DNA of 64,000 nt from Polyodon spathula (Eukaryota; Chordata; Actinopteri; Acipenseriformes; Polyodontidae): the NCBI RefSeq assembly GCF_017654505.1, contig NC_054538.1, positions 53,865,786 through 53,929,785 of the forward strand. The letters are read 5' to 3'. The stretch's first letter is position 1, and every line of letters begins with the position of its first letter. A program made the position numbers and the translations under genes. Positions 2,054 to 52,489 of the stretch are shown piece by piece. The notes below the pieces were generated by a model. The model had not been told where the DNA came from and did not search any database. It saw nothing but the letters and a program-made list of their open reading frames with translations.

Positions 2054-2994
2054 GTAGCTTAATTCACAGAAATCTACAATCGCACGCGTAGTTATCCTCA
2101 GTGTCAGTTCCTGATGGCTGTAAACAGTGTACATTTTTGTTTACCCCAGAATTTTCTTTGTTTGTTTGAGATGAAGTGCCCTTCTAAAAAGGCTTTTCTA
2201 ACACTCACTTTTAAACAAAAAAAGGTCTGTTTACAGCCACTAGGAACCAATTAAGAACCACTGAAGGCAGTGAAGTGTTTTGTGGTTTAAAACCATTGTT
2301 GTGGTATTATCAGTCACTATCTGTGTTGGTTTAGTTTAATTCAAGAAACTGAAATACAACATTATGTACACTGTTTTTTTCCTGGCACACACAGCACAAG
2401 TAACCAACATTTCAATTATGACCAAATTTAAACAAGTGTGGCAACTAATTAGAATTGATGTAAACCACAGTGTCTTGCATTAAGGGCACCAGTTGTATGA
2501 AAAAACAGAATAGATGCTGTCCCAGTGAAGGGTCGATTTAATTTGTTTGCCCTTAGTTATAAACCAGTCAACACTGGTTACAGTTAGTTTTTTTTTTTTT
2601 TTTAAATAGCCCCAATGTAGTTGTTTAAAGAGGCTATCAGTTAGCTAACACTATGTAACACAATTTTTGTTCCTGGGTAGTAAGTGTTATTTCCTAATTG
2701 CTTATGCCTCAAAAGTATAGAAAATGGCTATTATTCCCCACAAACTTTGCTTTTGTGACCAGGACAGTGATATTTCAAAATATCACTATTTCCAATGGGA
2801 AAACGGGCAAATGTGTGTCTTTTTGTTCACATAAAGTCAGAAAAAAACAACATTGGGTGCTGGTGCACTTATTGAAATGTATTGTTACTGTGGGGAAACA
2901 ATGAGCGATGTTGCAGGAAGGAGCATCTGGAATCTGAGTAATTTTACTGCATTTTATGAATTACAAAAGTATAAATCTACATTGTTGTTCACAG
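2054..2994 (+). other. CRIM1: CRIM1 intron
   Basis: A 941-bp phase-2 intron with donor GTAGCT and acceptor TTCACAG. It contains a T-run near 2589-2604 and the left end of a DNA transposon at 2649-2853. Nothing else is recognisable. Confidence 0.85.
2649..2853 (+). mobile_element. Solo left end of the 50-kb-type DNA transposon
   Basis: This 205-bp block is nearly identical to 50071-50275, from CACTATGTAACAC to the run AAAAAACAACAT, and the match stops sharply there. It is preceded by TAA (2646-2648), compatible with the TWA-type 3-bp target seen at the full copy. No right end is found nearby, so it is an end fragment or a deleted copy. A 20-bp near-perfect palindrome at about 2768-2787 is specific to this copy. 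Confidence 0.8.
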
Positions 2995-3421: not shown

Positions 3422-3475
3422 TTATTTAATTATTTAGCAGATGCTTTTATCCAAAGCAATTTACAGAAATTAAAC
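3422..3475 (+). repeat. Fish-type interspersed repeat fragment
   Basis: The stretch TTTAGCAGATGCTTTTATCC followed by AAAGCAATTTACAG is a short motif I recognise as widely dispersed in ray-finned fish genomes. It supports a fish origin. No boundaries or coding sequence accompany it. Confidence 0.5.
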
Positions 3476-4064
3476 CAAATATAAAAATAGATCAGTTACA
3501 GGCAATACAAATGCAAAACAACACCTATGTATACAAAAGAGCCAGCAAGAGGGGAAGAAGAGTGAAGAAAAGGCATAACAATTCAGCCAGTAGAGGATGA
3601 GCGGAGAAGGCGAGAGGGAATATAAGGAGACGCGGGGGATTGGAGACAGGATGGGGCAGTATGATAAATAGATAGGCAAGAGCAAAGGTCTTAAATTGGA
3701 TGTATGGTGGCTTTGTAGATAGCAGACACCACTAATCTAATTCACTTGACCTAATCTGGATTCAAATCCAGACTGCCAGAGATGAAAGGTTAGCACATTA
3801 ACCCACTTTGCCATTGTATTTTAAAATACACTAGACCCCTTCCCTTTTCTTAGGGGAGATTAAATCCCCTCACAAGTTTCCTCAATAAGCTGCCTGTGTT
3901 CTATAAAGCTAGCTGTATCTCAGCTTTACATTTGACTTACATGGTATCTCCAGTCAGTGCAATATAATATAGTACTATGTTAGAACAGAAGAAATAAAGC
4001 TTTTCCTTCTTCAGGCATTATTACAGTAAATACCAGCCTATGATCTGGGTAGCTTCAGGGGTGC

Positions 4065-13260: not shown

Positions 13261-14803
13261 CAGTGCCTTGCAAAAGTATTCTGACCCCTGACCAATTTCG
13301 CTCTGTTTGATTTTTTTTTTTAAAACACTGACACTAAAAATCAATTATGGTAAGGTGACATTGGTTTTATGTTGGGAAATATTTTTAAGAAAAATAAAAA
13401 ACTTTGAAATATCTTGCTTTTATAAGTATTCAACCCCTCTGCTGTGGAAGCTCACAGTTTGCACCGATGAAAGAAATTGCCCTAACGAGGACACAATTAC
13501 CTTACCATTGGCCTCCACCTGTGAACCATTAAAGTTGCTGTCACATTTTCTGGATAAAAACCCCACTGTTGAAGGATCATTGGTAAGGCTGTAAATCTGA
13601 AGGAAAATGAAGACCAAACAGCATTCTACAGAAGTTAGAGATAAAGTAATCAAATGCATAGATTAGGGAAAGGGTACAAAATAATATCCAAGTGTTTGGA
13701 TATCCCAGTGAGCACAGTTGGATCGATAATCAGAAAGTGGAAGCTGCATCACACCACCCAGGCACTGCCAAGAAAAGGCCGTCCCTCAAAACTCAGCACT
13801 CAAACAAGAAGGAGACTTGTGAGAGGAGCCACACAGAGGCCAACAATCACTTTGAAGGAGTTAGAGTTCAGTGGCTGGGAGTGGAGTAATGGTGCACCAG
13901 TCAACCATATCAAGAGTTCTGCATAACACTGGCCTGTATGGGAGGGTGACAAGAAAGAAGCCGTTACTCAAAAAGTACCATCTGAAAGCATGTCTGGAGT
14001 TTGCCAGAAAGCATGAGAGTGACCCAGCTGCGATGTGGGAAAAGGTTTTGTGGTCAAATGAGACCAAGATAGAGCTGTTTGGCCAAAACTCAAAGCACTA
14101 TATGTGGTGCAAACCTAACACTGCCCATGCCTCAAGACACACCATCCCTACAGTGAAGTATGGTGGTGGCAGCATCATGCTGTGGGGATGCTTCTCATCA
14201 GCAGGGACTGGGCATCTTGTTACAATTGAAGGAAGAATGGATGCAAAATACAGGTAAATACTGCAAGAGAATCTGCTTCAGTCCGCTAAAAAACTGAAGC
14301 TTGAGAGGAAATTCACCTTTCAGCAGGACAATGATCCCAAGCACAAGGCCAAAGCAACATTGGAGTGGCTCAAGAACAAAAAGGTGAATGTCCTATAGTG
14401 GCCCAGTCAAAGTCCTGATCTCAATCCCATTGAGAACCTGTGGCACTATTTGAAAATTGCGGTCCAGAAGCGTCGTCCAACCAACCTGAACAACCTGGAG
14501 CAAATCTGCCATGAAGAATTGGCCAAAATCGCTCCGACACTGTGTGCAAAGCTGGTACATACTTACCCCAAAAGACTTAAAGCTGTTATTGCAGTGAAAG
14601 GTGGCTCTACCAAATATTAATGTGTGGGGGTTGAATACTTATGCAAGCAAGATATTTCAGTTTTTTTTTTATTTTTCTTAAAAATATTTCCCAACATAAA
14701 ACGAATGTCACCTTATAATAATTGATTTTGAGTTTAAGTGTTGTATGCATCCAGCCCCTAGTGTCTGAATTACCCTGTGAACAAACCCTTATCTGGAGCA
14801 CTG
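13261..14803 (+). mobile_element. Tc1-like transposon, nearly full length
   Basis: Starts CAGTGCCTTGCAAAAG at 13261 after TATATA and ends GGAGCACTG at 14803. Subterminal inverted sequence of roughly 200 bp (for example AAATATTTTTAAGAAAAATA near 13377 and its reverse complement near 14670) matches the long-repeat Tc1 type. It is the same family as 23403-25015, in opposite orientation. The right outer 60 bp differ from the left, so one end has been altered. Confidence 0.88.
13607..14620 (+). pseudogene. Tc1 transposase pseudogene
   Basis: Starts MKTKQHSTEVRDKVI at 13607 and ends KGGSTKY-stop at 14618-14620, about the usual 340 codons. The DNA-binding half (KGYKIISKCLDIP, STVGSIIRKWK, ALPRKGRPSKL) is followed by a frameshift at about 13862-13872, then MVHQSTISR, the catalytic block [38 protein letters not shown] and [11 protein letters not shown]. 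The first catalytic Asp (family WSDET) is Asn here. In-frame stops also occur (after QMH-equivalent at about 13660, in DAKYR-stop at 14251, and before WPSQSPD at 14396). It is dead on at least four counts. Confidence 0.88.
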
Positions 14804-23404: not shown

Positions 23405-25015
23405 GTGCCTTGCAAAAGTATTCAGACCCCTGACCAATTCTCTCATATTACTGAATTACAAATAGTACATTGAAATTTCGTTCTGTTCGATATTTTTTTT
23501 TTTTAAAACACTTAAACTCAAAATCAGTTATTATAAGGAGACATTTGTTTTATGTTGGGAAATATTTTTAAGAAAAATAAAAAAGACTGAAATATCTTGC
23601 TTGCATAAGTATTTCGACCCCCACACATTAATATTTGGTAGAGCCACCTTTCGCTGCAATAACAGCTTTAAGTCTTTTGGGGTAAGTATGTACCAGCTTT
23701 GCACAAAGTGTCGGAGTGATTTTGGACCATTCTTCTTGGCAGATTTGCTCCAGGTTGTTCAGGTTGGTTGGACGACGCTTGTGGACCGCAATTTTCAAAT
23801 AGTGCCACAGATTCTCAATGGGATTGAGATCAGGACTTTGACTGGGCCACTGTAGGACATTCACTTTTTTGTTCTTGAGCCACTCCAATGTTGCTTTGGC
23901 CTTGTGCTTGGGATCATTGTCCTGCTGAAAGGTGAATTTCCTCCCAAGCTTCAGTTTTTTAGCAGACTGAAGCAGATTCTCTTGCAGTATTTTGCTCCAT
24001 CCATTCTTCCTTCAATTGTAACAAGATGCCCAGTCCCTGCTGATGAGAAGCATCCCCACAGCATGATGCTGCCACCACCATACTTCACTGTAGGGATGGT
24101 GTGTCTTGAGGCATGGGCAGTGTTAGGTTTGCGCCACACATAGCGCTTTGAGTTTTGGCCAAAAAGCTCTATCTTGGTCTCATCTGACCACAAAACCTTT
24201 TCCCACATCACAGCTGGGTCACTCTCATGCTTTCTGGCAAACTCCAGACGTGCTTTCAGATGGTACTTTTTGAGTAACGGCTTCTTTCTTGCCACCCTCC
24301 CATACAGGCCAGTGTTATGCAGAGCTCTTGATATGGTTGACTGGTGCACCATTACTCCACTCCCAGCCACTGAACTCTAGCTCCTTCAAAGTGATTGTTG
24401 GCCTCTGTGTGGCTTCTCTCACAAGTCTCCTTCTTGTTTGAGCGCTGAGTTTTGAGGGACGGCCTTTTCTTGGCAGTGCCTGGGTGGTGTGATGCAGCTT
24501 CCACTTTCTGATTATCGATCCAACTGTGCTCGCTGGGATATCCAAACACTTGGATATTATTTTGTACCCTTTCCCTAATCTATGCATTTGTATTACTTTA
24601 TCTCTAACTTCTGTAGAATGCTGTTTGGTCTTCATTTTCCTTCAGATTTACAGCCTTACCAATGATCCTTCAACAGTGGGGTTTTTATCCAGAAAATGTG
24701 ACAGCAACTTTAATGGTTCACAGGTGGAGGCCAATGGTAAGGTAATTGTGTCCTCGTTAGGGCAATTTCTTTCATCAGTGCAAACTGTGAGCTTCCACAG
24801 CAGAGGGGTTGAATACTTATGCAAGCAAGATATTTCAGTTTTTTATTTTTCTTAAAAATATTTCCCAACATAAAACCAATGTCACCTTACAATAATTGAT
24901 TCTGAGTTTCAGTGTTTAAAAATAAAATATCAGACAAAACGAAATTTCAATGTTCCATTTGTAATTCAGTAACATGAGAGAATTGGTCAGGGGTATGAAT
25001 ACTTTTGCAATCCTG
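23403..25015 (-). mobile_element. Tc1-like transposon, full length with long inverted repeats
   Basis: The outer ends CAGTGCCTTGCAAAAGTATT (23403) and the reverse complement ending CAATCCTG (25015) are inverted repeats extending inward over about 230 bp, including AGACCCCTGACCAATTCTCT and its partner near 24980. Length is about 1.61 kb, typical for Tc1. Insertion lies inside a TA microsatellite. It is the same family as the copy at 13261-14803. Confidence 0.92.
23628..24635 (-). pseudogene. Tc1 transposase pseudogene, best-preserved copy
   Basis: The minus-strand start MKTKQHSTEVRDKVIQMHRL is at 24635 and KGGSTKY-stop at 23628. All catalytic blocks are readable: [11 protein letters not shown] keeps the first Asp, QQDNDPKH the second Asp and [11 protein letters not shown] the third acidic residue. 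Two lesions break it. One is a frameshift between KELE and the MVHQSTISR segment at about 24370, at the same place as in the 13.6-kb copy. The other is a small deletion around 23985 that shifts the frame after GRMDGAKY. Its N-terminal helix-turn-helix region is intact. Confidence 0.9.
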
Positions 25016-30959: not shown

Positions 30960-31877
30960 CAAATGTAAGTTTCAACTGCTGATGAGGTCCAGGGCCCCAT
31001 ATTTTTGACTAGATGCTAGTTAAGTTTTGCTGTTGCTGCTGATGTGGCTGCTCCGAATCTGAATGAATGAGAAGTATTGAATTGCAGGGGAAGACCTGCT
31101 CTGGAAACCAAAGTGGAGAGATGAGAAGTGAACCAATGCCTTGATACAACGGCTTGAATTGGTGAACAAGGGGTCAGAAGATGAAATGGGTTTGCGTTCT
31201 GCAATATATCTCTGCATCGAAGCATATGGGCATAGAGGAGAGTCAATTTTTGAAAGCTGAATGCATTGGCCTTGCCGAAGCTGATCCGTTTTTGAAAGGC
31301 GTAAGAAGAGAATAAAATGGGAATCTAGAATGAGCGTGAGATCACTGCAGCGAATACCCAGAGTAGGAAAGTTGGCAATAGAGGGAACTGTATATTCTGA
31401 GCATCTCAAGAGCCACAAAAATGTGGTTAGTTATATGGTTTCCATTGTTAAGTAATCAAATGGAGGGAAGCAGCCTTGACGGAGGATTGAAATCAAATTA
31501 AAGAGATATGTAGGCAAGAAGGAGAAACAGCCGGAGAGCTCTTAGAGATTCCGCACAGGAGGAGATGGACAGATGGAATTGGTAGTAGAGTTGGAGAAGC
31601 AATGGACATCAAGCGAATTGTATTCCTGACAGATATGATTTGATTGTAGCTGGAGCCAGATGTAAAGAATCCTTTGTGAGTACTGTGAAAGCCATGATCC
31701 AGTCCTGATTGAATGGAGTTGGATTAATCCTGCTTTGGGAATAGAAAGTAACCCAGCCTGTAGAGTACGAGGATCTGGTAGAGGGAGTGAATGCTGAAAA
31801 CATGTAAACTTGCACTGAATTAAGTAGTTTGGTGATAAATAATAATAAGAATAATAATTTGTATTTTTATATAGCAC
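30960..31877 (-). pseudogene. Tyrosine recombinase of the DIRS/Ngaro element
   Basis: Encodes the enzyme that would circularise or integrate element DNA. The N-terminal core-binding part (STRSSYSTGW, then TIKSYLSGIQFA) is at 31815-31609. The catalytic part has LLRCSEY (first Arg region), LSKTDQLRQG, and HSFRFGAATSAAT (His-x-x-Arg box, about 31065-31027). A stop follows at about 31019, and downstream in frame is MGPWTSSAVETY with the candidate nucleophilic Tyr near 30965. Frame changes separate the pieces. All four catalytic signatures are still visible though the frame is broken. Confidence 0.8.
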
Positions 31878-32098
31878 CTTTCATAGTGGACCACCGTCAC
31901 AAAGTCCTTTACAAGAGACTAGGGTGTGTGGACTATGCATCAGTTGCAGATTCACTTGCAACAGCGTCTCACCCGAAAAACAGAGCGAAAGGAAGTGACA
32001 TGCTCAGGTCACATAGTCAGTCAGTGGCTGAACTGGGATTTGAACCAGGGACCTCCTGGTTACAGGCCCATTTCTTTGGCCACTGGACCACACAGTCT
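31821..32098 (-). mobile_element. CORE-SINE with LINE-like 3' tail, nested
   Basis: The minus strand starts AGGAGACTGTGTGGTCCAGTGG. It has the pol III B box GGTTCAAATCC (32046-32036), a CORE-like block (TATGTGACCTGAGCATGTCA) and a 3' end AGGTGCTATATAAAAATACA followed by an ATT-rich tail, resembling L2-type LINE tails. It lies between the RNase H and recombinase parts of the DIRS/Ngaro element, so it was inserted later. Confidence 0.8.
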
Positions 32099-32116
32099 CC
32101 TATAATGGGGTCGCTG

Positions 32117-32545
32117 CTAGAGTTGGCAGGGCTGTAGGAACCAGACGGTGGAATTTGGAAATCTGTAAATAAGAGCATCAGCTGCATTATTATAGATTCC
32201 CAGTAGATGGCAGGGTTGTGTTCGAAAATTATTATTTACTGATATCCATTTTAGCTGCCGCAGTAATTGCATGATAAGAGGGGAACTGGAACAGCCTTTA
32301 ATGATAATATGCACTGTGGATATGTTATCACAGTAGAATAATATTGATTTCTTAGACCAAAGACGACCCCATAGCTGAGCTGCCACAACTGCGGGGTAAA
32401 TTTCAAGAGCTGTGGATTTTTGATGTGGTGATTGGTTTTCGATTACCGTAGGCCATACTCTGGAAAACCACTGATTTGTTTGAGAGACCTCCAAATCCCA
32501 AAAATGACTGTCTGTAAACAAAGCCAAACAGACAGACCGTTCCAA
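32117..32545 (-). pseudogene. RNase H domain of the DIRS/Ngaro element
   Basis: An open minus-strand frame of 142 codons. Motifs match RNase H of this order: LFTDSHFWD (first Asp), STALEIYPAVVAA (Glu), FYCDNISTV (second Asp), CHLLGIYNNAADAL (His/Asp region). It lacks a start of its own and would be read as part of the RT polyprotein. Confidence 0.8.
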
Positions 32546-32581
32546 TGCTGAATAAGAGCGGACTACTTTTTAATGTCCTTT

Positions 32582-33434
32582 CTAGCTTCTGATGAAATAT
32601 TGATAGTCCAAGTTCTGACGATGCAAGAGCAAGTAAACGAGATATAAACGTCCACCCCGGGGAAGGATAATGAGAATTGCAAAGTTGAAATGACCCAGCA
32701 AAGAGAGCAGTGCACGTTTCCTGATCATTTTACTGATCTGAATGTTTTGGATAAGAAAACAAATGTGATTGAGTTTTGACACTGGGAGACTGGCTTCAAA
32801 ATTTTCTGTGTCCAGTATGATTCCTAGAAATTCCAGAGAATGAAGGAGGCTGATTGTTTTTTCTTCTGAAAGCAGGACACCAACTTCTGAAAATAAACTC
32901 AAGATTGGTGATTGCTTCTGCTGGTGGATCTGAAGGAGGAGAGATCAATAGAAAATCATCAATTAGGTGGAGCAGAAATGGAACATGGTATGCATTGAAA
33001 GGTATCCAGCATAGCGCTTCTGAGAGAGTATAGAATATCTTCGGGCTGCTGCGGCAGCTGAAAGTTAACTGAGTAGCAAAATAAAACTTTTCTTCCCAGC
33101 ATATCCCAAACATGTGGCGAAGAGAAGGATGGATTGGCATTACTTTAAATGCGTCTGATATAGCTGCTTTTGCTAACCAAGAACCGTTGCCTGCTAATTT
33201 ATTTGCATGAATTGCATCTGAGATGGTAATGTGATAAAGAGAAAATTGATCATGAGGAATGAGCGAGTTGATGCTGCTGGTGCTTGAGCCCCGCAGTGCT
33301 GATAAATTGATGATGAGACGCTTTTTTTCCTGACATTTTCCAAGTGGCAATGCCAATAGGATTAATTCTGTACATTGGAAATGGGGGAGCTGAAAATGGA
33401 CCAACTGTAAATCCTTTTTTGATTTATTTTTCAA
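32582..33434 (-). pseudogene. Reverse transcriptase domain of the DIRS/Ngaro element
   Basis: Two overlapping minus-strand frames. The first (33434-32796) has KKRLIINLSALR, then AAISDAFKVMPIHPS (motif A Asp in SDAF), FATQLTFSCRSSPKIF (motif B region) and LHLIDDFLLIS (motif C, DD pair kept). A frameshift near 32890 leads into LSEEKTISLLHSLEFLGI and RKRALLSLLGHFNFAI (thumb/connection). The spacing is typical of DIRS/Ngaro RT. It is a pseudogene through the frameshift. Confidence 0.85.
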
Positions 33435-33816
33435 TGAAAGATTGAACTGACTCTGGTTCTTGATTAGCAGAATGGAGGTTTTTGCTTTGAAAGGAGGAAG
33501 AAGGAATTTAAGCCTGGTTGAAAAAATGTTTTCCAGTCTGTCGATTTAAGTAACTGGTGAAAATCTTGTCAGGATGATTCAGAAGTTTTTGTACTGAAGT
33601 GTTTATGGGAGTGGAGACGGAGCATTGAAGAAAGCCACTTGGGAAGTACTGGGAAGATTGCTTTAGAGTAAGCATCCCCACAAGTACTGCACTTGTGAAT
33701 TAAATTGCATTGCCTGTTTGAACAGAAACCAGTATTGAAATTATTCCAGATTCATCTTGTCCTCCTGAAAATCTGATTCTGCACCCATATTTGTCTTGCC
33801 TTGTGGATTGCTCGGT

Positions 33817-50000: not shown

Positions 50001-50070
50001 CGTGTTTAGACAGGGATGTGTGACATATTTTTAATAGCAAAAGTGCATTCCCTTCCTGTCATCCAAATTA

Positions 50071-52484
50071 CACTATGTAACACAATTTTTGTTCCTGGGT
50101 AGTAAGTGTTATTTCCTAATTGCTTATGCCTCAAAAGTATAGAAAATGGCTATTATTCCCCACAAACTTTGCTTTTGTGACCAGGACAGTGATATTTTAA
50201 AATGTACCTATTTCCAATGAGAAAACAGGCGAATTTGTGTCTTTTCGTTCACATAAAGTCAGAAAAAAACAACATATGAATCCAAATTAACATGTATTTA
50301 TACTAAAGTAATACAAAAATGACTACAAAAGATTTAGAAGTGAGTAGTTTTTCGAGATTTACGATTATACTGTAAATCACTTTCACGAATCAGCCCCCAA
50401 ATGTAGTCTCCCATCATGTTCTCGTTATCCTGCCCTTGGTAGCGGCGTTCAAAATCCAGTATATCCTGGTGGAAGCGCTCGCCTTGCTCCTCCGAGTACG
50501 CTCCCATGTTCTCCTTGAATTTATCAAGATGAGCATCAAGGATATGGACTTTGAGGGACATCCTACAGCCCATTGTGCCGTAGTTCTTCACCAGAGTCTC
50601 AACCAGCTCCACATAGTTTTCGGCCTTGTGATTGCCCAGGAAGCCCTGAACCACTGCTACAAAGCTGTTCCAAGCCGCTTTCTCCTTACTAGTGAGCTTC
50701 TTGGGGAATCTTCTTTATCTGTGGTCCTAAGAAGACACCGGCGTTGACCTTTGCCTCAGACAGCTTAGGGAAGTAGTCTTGAAGGTACATGAAGGCTGCC
50801 GACTCCTTATCTAGAGCTCTGACAAATTGTTTCATAAGGCCCAATTTGATGTGCAGTGGTGGCATCAGCACCTACCGGGGGTCTACCAGTGGCTCCCACT
50901 TGACGTTGTTCCTCCCTACAGAGAACTCGGTCCGCTGTGGCCAGTCCCGCCTGTGGTAGTGCGCCTTGGTGTCCCTGCTGTCCCAAAGGCAAAGATAGCA
51001 GGGAAACTTGGTAAAACCGCCTTGGAGACCCATCAGGAATGCCACCATTTTGAAGTCTCATATGACCTCCCAGCCGTACTCATCATACTTCAAGGCGTCC
51101 AGCAAGGTCCTGATGCTGTTGCAATCCTCTTTGAGGTGTACCGAGTGAGCCAGGGGAAGAGACGGGTATTTGTTACCATTATGGAGCACCACGGCTTTGA
51201 GGCTCCTGGATGAGCTGTCAATGAAGAGGCGCCACTCATTCTGGTTACAGGCGATTCCGATTGCCTCGAACAGACTGGTCACATTGTGGCAGAAGCTGAG
51301 CCCATCTTGACGGGTGAAGAAGCTGGAAAAAGATTGTTGGCGCTTCCTCTGATCTGCGACTTGCACACTTTCATCCAACAAGTTCCATTTGACTTGGTGA
51401 GACCAAGATCTCTAATCAAGTCGTTGAGGTCTTTTTGGTTGGGGTAGTATGGGTTTCTCTCCTCAGCTCCACCTCTGAAATTGTCATCTGGATCTACAAC
51501 GTCTTCCTCGCTCTCTGACTTGCTGCTCTCTTCTAAAGACAGCTGCTCTCTCTCCGGAGGAGTGGGTATGGGGAGCTCATGGCAGTGTGGCACCGAGGCG
51601 ATGGATGAAGGAAGGTCCGGATACGTGATAGCAGGTGCATTCTTGCCAGTCTGACGTTTGGAAGGGTCCACCATGCAGAAGTAGCAGTTGCTTGAGTGGT
51701 CAGTGGGTTCCCGCCAAATTCTTGGGATAGCGAACTTCATGGCTCTCTTTTCCCCTCTGTACCATCCTACAAAAATACATTTATTTCACCCATGACTAAT
51801 GTGTAAGAGATTCTCGCAACATTTTTCATATATGATATATTTTTTCAATAACGTTGAAAATTGTAAAACATTTTAAAATTAAAAACTTTTACAATTTTAA
51901 AAATTTTAACAAATTTTATAACATAAAATTCCGAGCAACATTTGTCCATCTTACCTTCCAGAGTTTTTTTGCCATGCTCGCAGGTGAAATGAGGTGCCCA
52001 GGGTTTGTCTTGATCCCCGACAGGCATGCCGAAATATGCCTTGTAGGCCTCACGCATCTTAGCAGATGCTTCCACGGAGTACTTTTTCGCTCTTGTCTTG
52101 ATAAATTGGCCGCAGACATAGCAAAATGTGTCTGCCGGATGCTTCCAGCCTCTTGATGCCATCTCAGAAAAATGCAGATATGTATCCACTTAGGCAGCTG
52201 GAACTAAACTGAACTGGTGGGCTTAAGGTCCCTGTATTTATACTACTATTTATATTACTGGAAAGTTCTAGAAAGTTCTAGAAGTTACTCCAAGTTTACT
52301 CAGCACTGAATCTATCTGGAATGTTCTGAAAAATAGGTACATTTCAAAATATCACTGTCCTGGTCACAAAAGCAAAGTTTATGGGGAATAATAGCCACTC
52401 TCTATACTTTTGAAGCATAAGCAATTAGGAAATAACACTTACTACCCAGGAACCAAAAAATAAATAAAAAATTGTTACACGGTG
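50071..52484 (-). mobile_element. 2.4-kb DNA transposon of an unassigned family
   Basis: A complete insertion. The left end is CACTATGTAACACAATTTTT and the right end, read on the minus strand, is CACCGTGTAACAATTTTTTA. The terminal inverted repeats match over about 170 bp (shared core GTTCCTGGGTAGTAAGTG, then TTTCCTAATTGCTTATGC and so on), and the insertion is flanked by TTA on both sides (50068-50070 and 52485-52487). One minus-strand gene fills the interior. Length, inverted repeats and duplication mark a cut-and-paste DNA transposon. A 3-bp TWA target recalls Harbinger, but the protein does not look like a Harbinger transposase to me. Confidence 0.85.
50334..52189 (-). pseudogene. Putative transposase gene with one intron, lightly broken
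   Basis: Minus-strand exon 1 (52189 to about 51957) has FCYVCGQF, MREAYKAYFGMPVGDQDKPW and APHFTC (a zinc-binding C-x2-C / H-x2-C pattern). A GTAAGA donor (about 51956) and TTTTTGTAG acceptor (about 51770) remove an intron of some 190 bp. Exon 2 continues WYRGEKRAMKFAIPRIWREP, HSSNCYFC, an acidic linker, DLNDLIRDLGLTKS, EWRLFIDSSSRSLKAV, VLHNGNKYPSLPLAHSVHLK, FPCYLCLWDSRD, MPPLHIKLGLMKQFVRAL and EEQGERFHQDILDFERRYQG, ending near 50334. One frameshift (about 51385) and a few stops (for example TGA before DFKMV at about 51055) break it. I recognise the layout from large uncharacterised animal gene families but know no established function. Asp in FIDSS and Glu in EEQGE could be RNase H-fold catalytic residues; that is inference. 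Confidence 0.7.
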
Positions 52485-52489
52485 TTATT

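Follow-up and report, generated by a model that had tools for sequence, protein, structure and literature searches.

A broken transposon in the Polyodon spathula genome is very probably a copy of Merrow, of the Chapaev3 group

Which kind of transposon, if any, placed a two-exon gene between long inverted ends in the genome of Polyodon spathula? The gene lies in the window, by which we mean the whole 64-kb stretch of DNA analysed here, and a first-pass annotation had taken it for the transposase of a complete cut-and-paste transposon belonging to no named superfamily. We found the element to be real and its kind to be already known: it is very probably a dead copy of Merrow (Chapaev3 group, CMC clade), presumably moved by a Merrow transposase with a predicted DDE, RNase H-like centre, an assignment made from the published description. 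Its parts are as follows.

50068..50070, no strand: TTA target-site duplication, left (a single TTA at the empty site L067)
50071..52484, minus strand (strand of its gene): Merrow-type Chapaev3 transposon, 2,414 bp, delimited by paired ends and duplication
50071..50213, plus strand: left terminal inverted repeat, tip CACTATGTAACA (from 50071)
50334..51766, minus strand: second exon of the transposase gene, carrying two frame breaks plus two in-frame stops
51767..51954, minus strand: predicted intron, 188 bp, GT-AG, placed by comparison with P0001 and other copies
51955..52162, minus strand: first exon of the transposase gene, 208 nt counted from its ATG
52331..52484, minus strand: right terminal inverted repeat, tip CACCGTGTAACA (reverse-complemented, from 52484), with an A/T-rich run behind the tip
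52485..52487, no strand: TTA target-site duplication, right

The two arms, at 50086-50213 and 52331-52458, are 95% complementary over 128 nt. Counting the tips, the left inverted repeat spans 143 bp and the right one 154 bp, which confirms the long inverted ends noted earlier and corrects their length from about 170 bp; the right arm includes the additional A/T-rich run behind its tip. The TTA reported on both sides of the element is present at 50068-50070 and 52485-52487. Among copies, the T-rich run behind the right tip varies in length (for example in L043, L053 and L031) and the left end is nearly constant. A second Merrow end, on the plus strand at window positions 2649-2853, is 95.6% identical to the element's first 205 bp and is preceded by TAA; no partner for it was found within the 64-kb window.

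A genome-wide search with the element's end, as the first-pass annotation had proposed, was run on the 1.54-Gb assembly. For the left end, each of the 40 places scored gave a match (125 candidates; E ≤ 1.6e-59), and a 117-aa piece of the element's protein matched at all 150 places scored (1,323 candidates). Ends were examined at 50 loci (the window, L009-L028 and L030-L058); both could be paired at 33, and the other 17, with no end pair within the stretch, were dropped. Exact 3-bp duplications flanked 24 of the 33 paired copies, reading TTA in ten, TAA in eight, TAG in three, and GAA, AAA and TGA in one each, that is, TWA in 18 cases and another sequence in six. Nine paired copies showed no exact duplication, and an exact 4-bp duplication was seen in none of the 33. 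Random re-pairing of the flanks yielded 8.1 exact 3-bp duplications on average and 15 at most (1,000 shuffles), compared with the 24 observed. The base before the duplication was A and the base after it T in 28 of the 33 paired copies each, indicating that the preferred target reads ATWAT. Two copies, L037 and L053, have flanks that are about 94% similar on both sides and thus probably represent one duplicated site, which puts the number of independent cases closer to 23 of 32.

Empty sites were sought with the joined flanks of four copies (the window copy, L016, L033 and L043). The window copy gave one clear, related site (L067, on contig C6), which carries one TTA and is 89% identical to the joined flanks over 108 query positions. 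For L016, a 530-bp deletion derivative, two empty sites were aligned (there were about 39 other matches), each with one TTA. The joined flanks of L043 gave partial matches only and no clean empty site; for L033, four of about 38 matches were aligned, showing a messy junction and no clean empty site, and this copy, whose duplication is also not exact, was not used. The element is a product of transposition. The many copies, the duplications above the shuffled level and the single TTA at empty sites bear out its earlier reading as a cut-and-paste transposon with a 3-bp target, which is TWA in most cases.

Copy length varies. Other full copies reach 2,460 bp among those with paired ends, and internally deleted copies measure 398-530 bp (L015, L016 and L026) or about 1.27-1.97 kb (L012, L013, L019, L022 and L024). 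The deleted copies keep the same two ends as the element, indicating that they are non-autonomous derivatives.

The two-exon gene predicted inside the element was recovered on the minus strand, with exon 1 running from 52162 to 51955 and exon 2 from 51766 to 50334 around a putative GT-AG intron. In the window copy, this gene is broken by two frame breaks and two in-frame stops, and the word 'complete' therefore suits the transposon's ends and not its gene. Across copies the exon border falls at residue 70, exon 1 coding for 69 aa plus one base. When 31 loci were read for splicing, 22 proved spliceable at the same place, six had altered splice sites and three lacked an anchor; a spliced frame of at least 550 aa was present at three of the 31. 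Exon 2 differs pairwise by 2.6% on average among 29 copies (range 0.9-4.3%) and by 1.4% on average from the column majority, in a star-like pattern, figures biased downwards, as nearly all the loci sampled were top-ranking matches to the protein piece taken from the window. The small differences among the sampled copies, together with the three long open frames, make fairly recent activity of Merrow in the Polyodon spathula genome plausible.

The same three frames are what could be said for a host gene, or a domesticated transposase, lying between repeats by chance. We give this explanation practically no credence: the window copy is broken, the exon-2 copies look star-like, and across many dispersed loci the gene sits within the same ends, accompanied by 3-bp duplications and empty sites. 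The earlier proposal linking the protein family to the element's ends is supported.

That family is large. Its two-exon protein P0001, which serves here for residue numbering, has 562 aa, and 484-aa frames starting at the second methionine (P0003) occur among the family matches. The family protein search returned 1,783 proteins at E ≤ 1e-3 (6,117 candidates; best 120 listed), and a search with exon 2 of copy L034 returned 2,373 at the same threshold (7,640 candidates; best 120 listed). Hosts among the matches listed include the fishes Myxocyprinus, Acipenser, Metynnis, Serrasalmus and Pygocentrus, the lamprey Lethenteron reissneri, a frog, crustaceans, insects, a tunicate and a sponge, along with many metagenome contigs. 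Exon 2 of L034 is 96% identical to a Myxocyprinus protein and to a sturgeon protein, 81% identical to a mantis-shrimp protein, and 85-92% identical to three L. reissneri proteins over 61-71% of the exon's length. No relatives were confirmed in viral contigs (searched with alignment A2, P0042 and P0001) or in prokaryotic genome contigs (alignment A2), and tblastn of one 117-aa protein piece against phage records gave no match.

Alignment of 81 family proteins revealed seven invariant residues, D263, D317, C339, L384, H385, H493 and H498, while C336 and E515 are present in 80 and E512 in 79. From these patterns, we propose that D263, D317 and E515 form a DDE triad, with E515 probably the third catalytic residue in preference to E512, judging by motif position and conservation. 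The FID and EEQGE motifs singled out by the first-pass annotation hold up well as candidates for the first and the last catalytic residue, agreeing with D263 and E515; the middle candidate, D317 in GDFKM, was absent from it. The N-terminal cysteines C14, C17, C61, C64, C97 and C100 are conserved in the family. In the zinc-like N-terminal module noted before, the supposed H-x2-C half is more aptly taken as the second C-x2-C of a two-part family module (C14 and C17 with C61 and C64); the last of these cysteines, C64, is a glycine in the window copy.

Existing domain models gave little guidance. No Pfam transposase model matched any of the 34 family members scanned at E ≤ 0.1, no Pfam domain was found on any of the best 120 proteins listed from the family search or on those listed for exon 2 of L034, and NCBIfam offered nothing useful for three family proteins. 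The family sequence profiles had no significant match to a solved transposase in the PDB, and a literature search with the motif letters brought up no paper on the protein among the matches listed. The Pfam and NCBIfam results would suit a new, unassigned superfamily of cut-and-paste transposons, yet a missing Pfam model does not mean a missing described family, and Merrow agrees with the element in size, exon number, target, tips and motifs. We consider a new superfamily very improbable, and the earlier statement that no named superfamily exists gives way to Merrow of the Chapaev3 group, whose published features fit those compared here; a match to a known superfamily was an outcome that the first-pass annotation had itself named as refuting its proposal.

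The Merrow family, part of Chapaev3 and thereby of the CMC clade, was described in 2014 in PMC4079192, a paper that covers three Chapaev3 families, cites Merrow_PM in Repbase from 2007 and gives AEFG01041997 as its representative. Lamprey copies are given there as 2,451-2,455 bp long, with exons of 78 and 484 aa (562 in total). The window copy (2,414 bp) and others (up to 2,460 bp) are near this length, and P0001 has the same two-exon total; exon 1 differs, with 69 aa plus one base here against the published 78 aa, although the totals agree. According to the same source, Chapaev3 duplications are TWA, always between A and T. The target is the same here, but six of the 24 exact duplications differ from TWA and the A/T context is frequent, not constant. 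Two further traits ascribed to Chapaev (PMC4079192) also recur: CAC/GTG termini, seen as 5'-CAC and GTG-3' at the element's ends, and the motifs C(2)C, LH and H(4)H, seen as residues 336/339, 384/385 and 493/498 in 80 or 81 of the 81 proteins. Membership in Merrow is defined there by at least 80% nucleotide identity over at least 300 bp, for which the 85-92% protein identity of L034 to the L. reissneri proteins serves here as a stand-in. Recorded hosts include lampreys, among them L. camtschaticum, a congener of L. reissneri, as well as white sturgeon, paddlefish, two catfishes, tuna and a dragonfly (PMC4079192). The paddlefish record is a 304-bp piece, whereas the copy described here is full-length, though broken, and other loci of the genome hold some open frames.

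Related groups fit less well. Garfield, a Chapaev3 family, also has two exons (78 and 478 aa) and shares group and target, but it is described from insects and a bracovirus and has at most 66% nucleotide identity to Merrow (PMC4079192); among the matches listed, fish and lamprey proteins are closer to exon 2 of L034 than insect ones. Other Chapaev, EnSpm/CACTA and Mirage elements of the CMC/CMCT clade are distantly related in sequence by published accounts (PMC12730594) and were set apart by description. The same source groups Chapaev with EnSpm, Mirage, Transib and RAG1 as the CMCT clade, gives C(2)C and H(3-4)H as the signature, and names Lanisha, from a Repbase Report, which we weighed as a candidate identity. 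Membership in PIF/Harbinger or Zator would account for the duplication length, as both make 3-bp duplications (PMC12730594, PMC10045372). Even so, we assign it a negligible likelihood, given that none of the 34 members scanned matched a corresponding Pfam DDE family at E ≤ 0.1 and that Chapaev is the group described as having the 5'-CAC tips and C(2)C, LH and H(4)H motifs seen here.

A RAG1 gene is present in the same assembly, and its protein shares the motif order D-x18-C-x2-C, LH, H-x4-H and E with the Merrow family, including the 18-residue gap from the second D to C(2)C. This pattern, written after both had been seen, occurs in 90 of the 93 family proteins of at least 470 aa and in two of 2,000 shuffles of each protein. 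Profile comparison of RAG1 with the family was not significant (probability 0.3%, E 0.2); the best RAG1-family profile alignment, likewise not significant, pairs the D, C(2)C and LH motifs. Transib, for comparison, leaves duplications of 5 bp.

At the N terminus, 16 of the 34 family members scanned had a match to the Pfam model zf-AD at E ≤ 0.1, the best at 7.5e-4; in P0001 the match covered residues 14-73 (E 0.0034; 18 bits, where the cut-off is 28). All of these scores fall short of accepted cut-offs. The sole PDB match to family profile A1 at E ≤ 1 was 7po9 (LD30467p; E 0.19), which we take to be a ZAD, and the same chain scored more weakly with the larger family alignment A2 (E 0.65). These similarities hint that the cysteine module of the Merrow/Chapaev3 transposase might be a homologue of the zf-AD (ZAD) domain that occurs in animal zinc-finger transcription factors, a relationship we regard as doubtful; if true, ZAD genes and the transposon's N-terminal module would share an origin. 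The N-terminal cysteines may be accounted for by the Chapa domain, a zinc-binding domain of Chapaev3 according to PMC4411706.

Taken on conserved motifs, catalysis would fall to the Merrow transposase, acting by cut-and-paste through an RNase H-like centre of the DDE type, with D263, D317 and E515 as the presumed metal-binding residues. Binding of the inverted ends would be aided by the N-terminal zinc module. Cleavage is predicted at the 5'-CAC and GTG-3' tips. A 3-bp stagger during strand transfer into an ATWAT-like target would then yield the TWA duplication. The transposase would probably have been supplied by other copies.

Through this assignment, a large set of 'uncharacterized' animal proteins (the 1,783 and 2,373 found at E ≤ 1e-3) is tied to a described transposon group, and the gap is one of a Pfam model and annotation, not of a superfamily.

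The window holds further traces of mobile DNA. A run of broken frames on the minus strand at 31020-33545 looks, by eye, like a DIRS-type retrotransposon; three frames within it had no Pfam match at E ≤ 1e-3. A UnaL2 LINE 3' element lies on the minus strand at 3424-3477 (56 bits against a gathering score of 55), and pieces of Tc1-like transposase (HTH_Tnp_Tc3_2, DDE_3) are found at 13865-14257 on the plus strand and at 23628-24011 on the minus strand.
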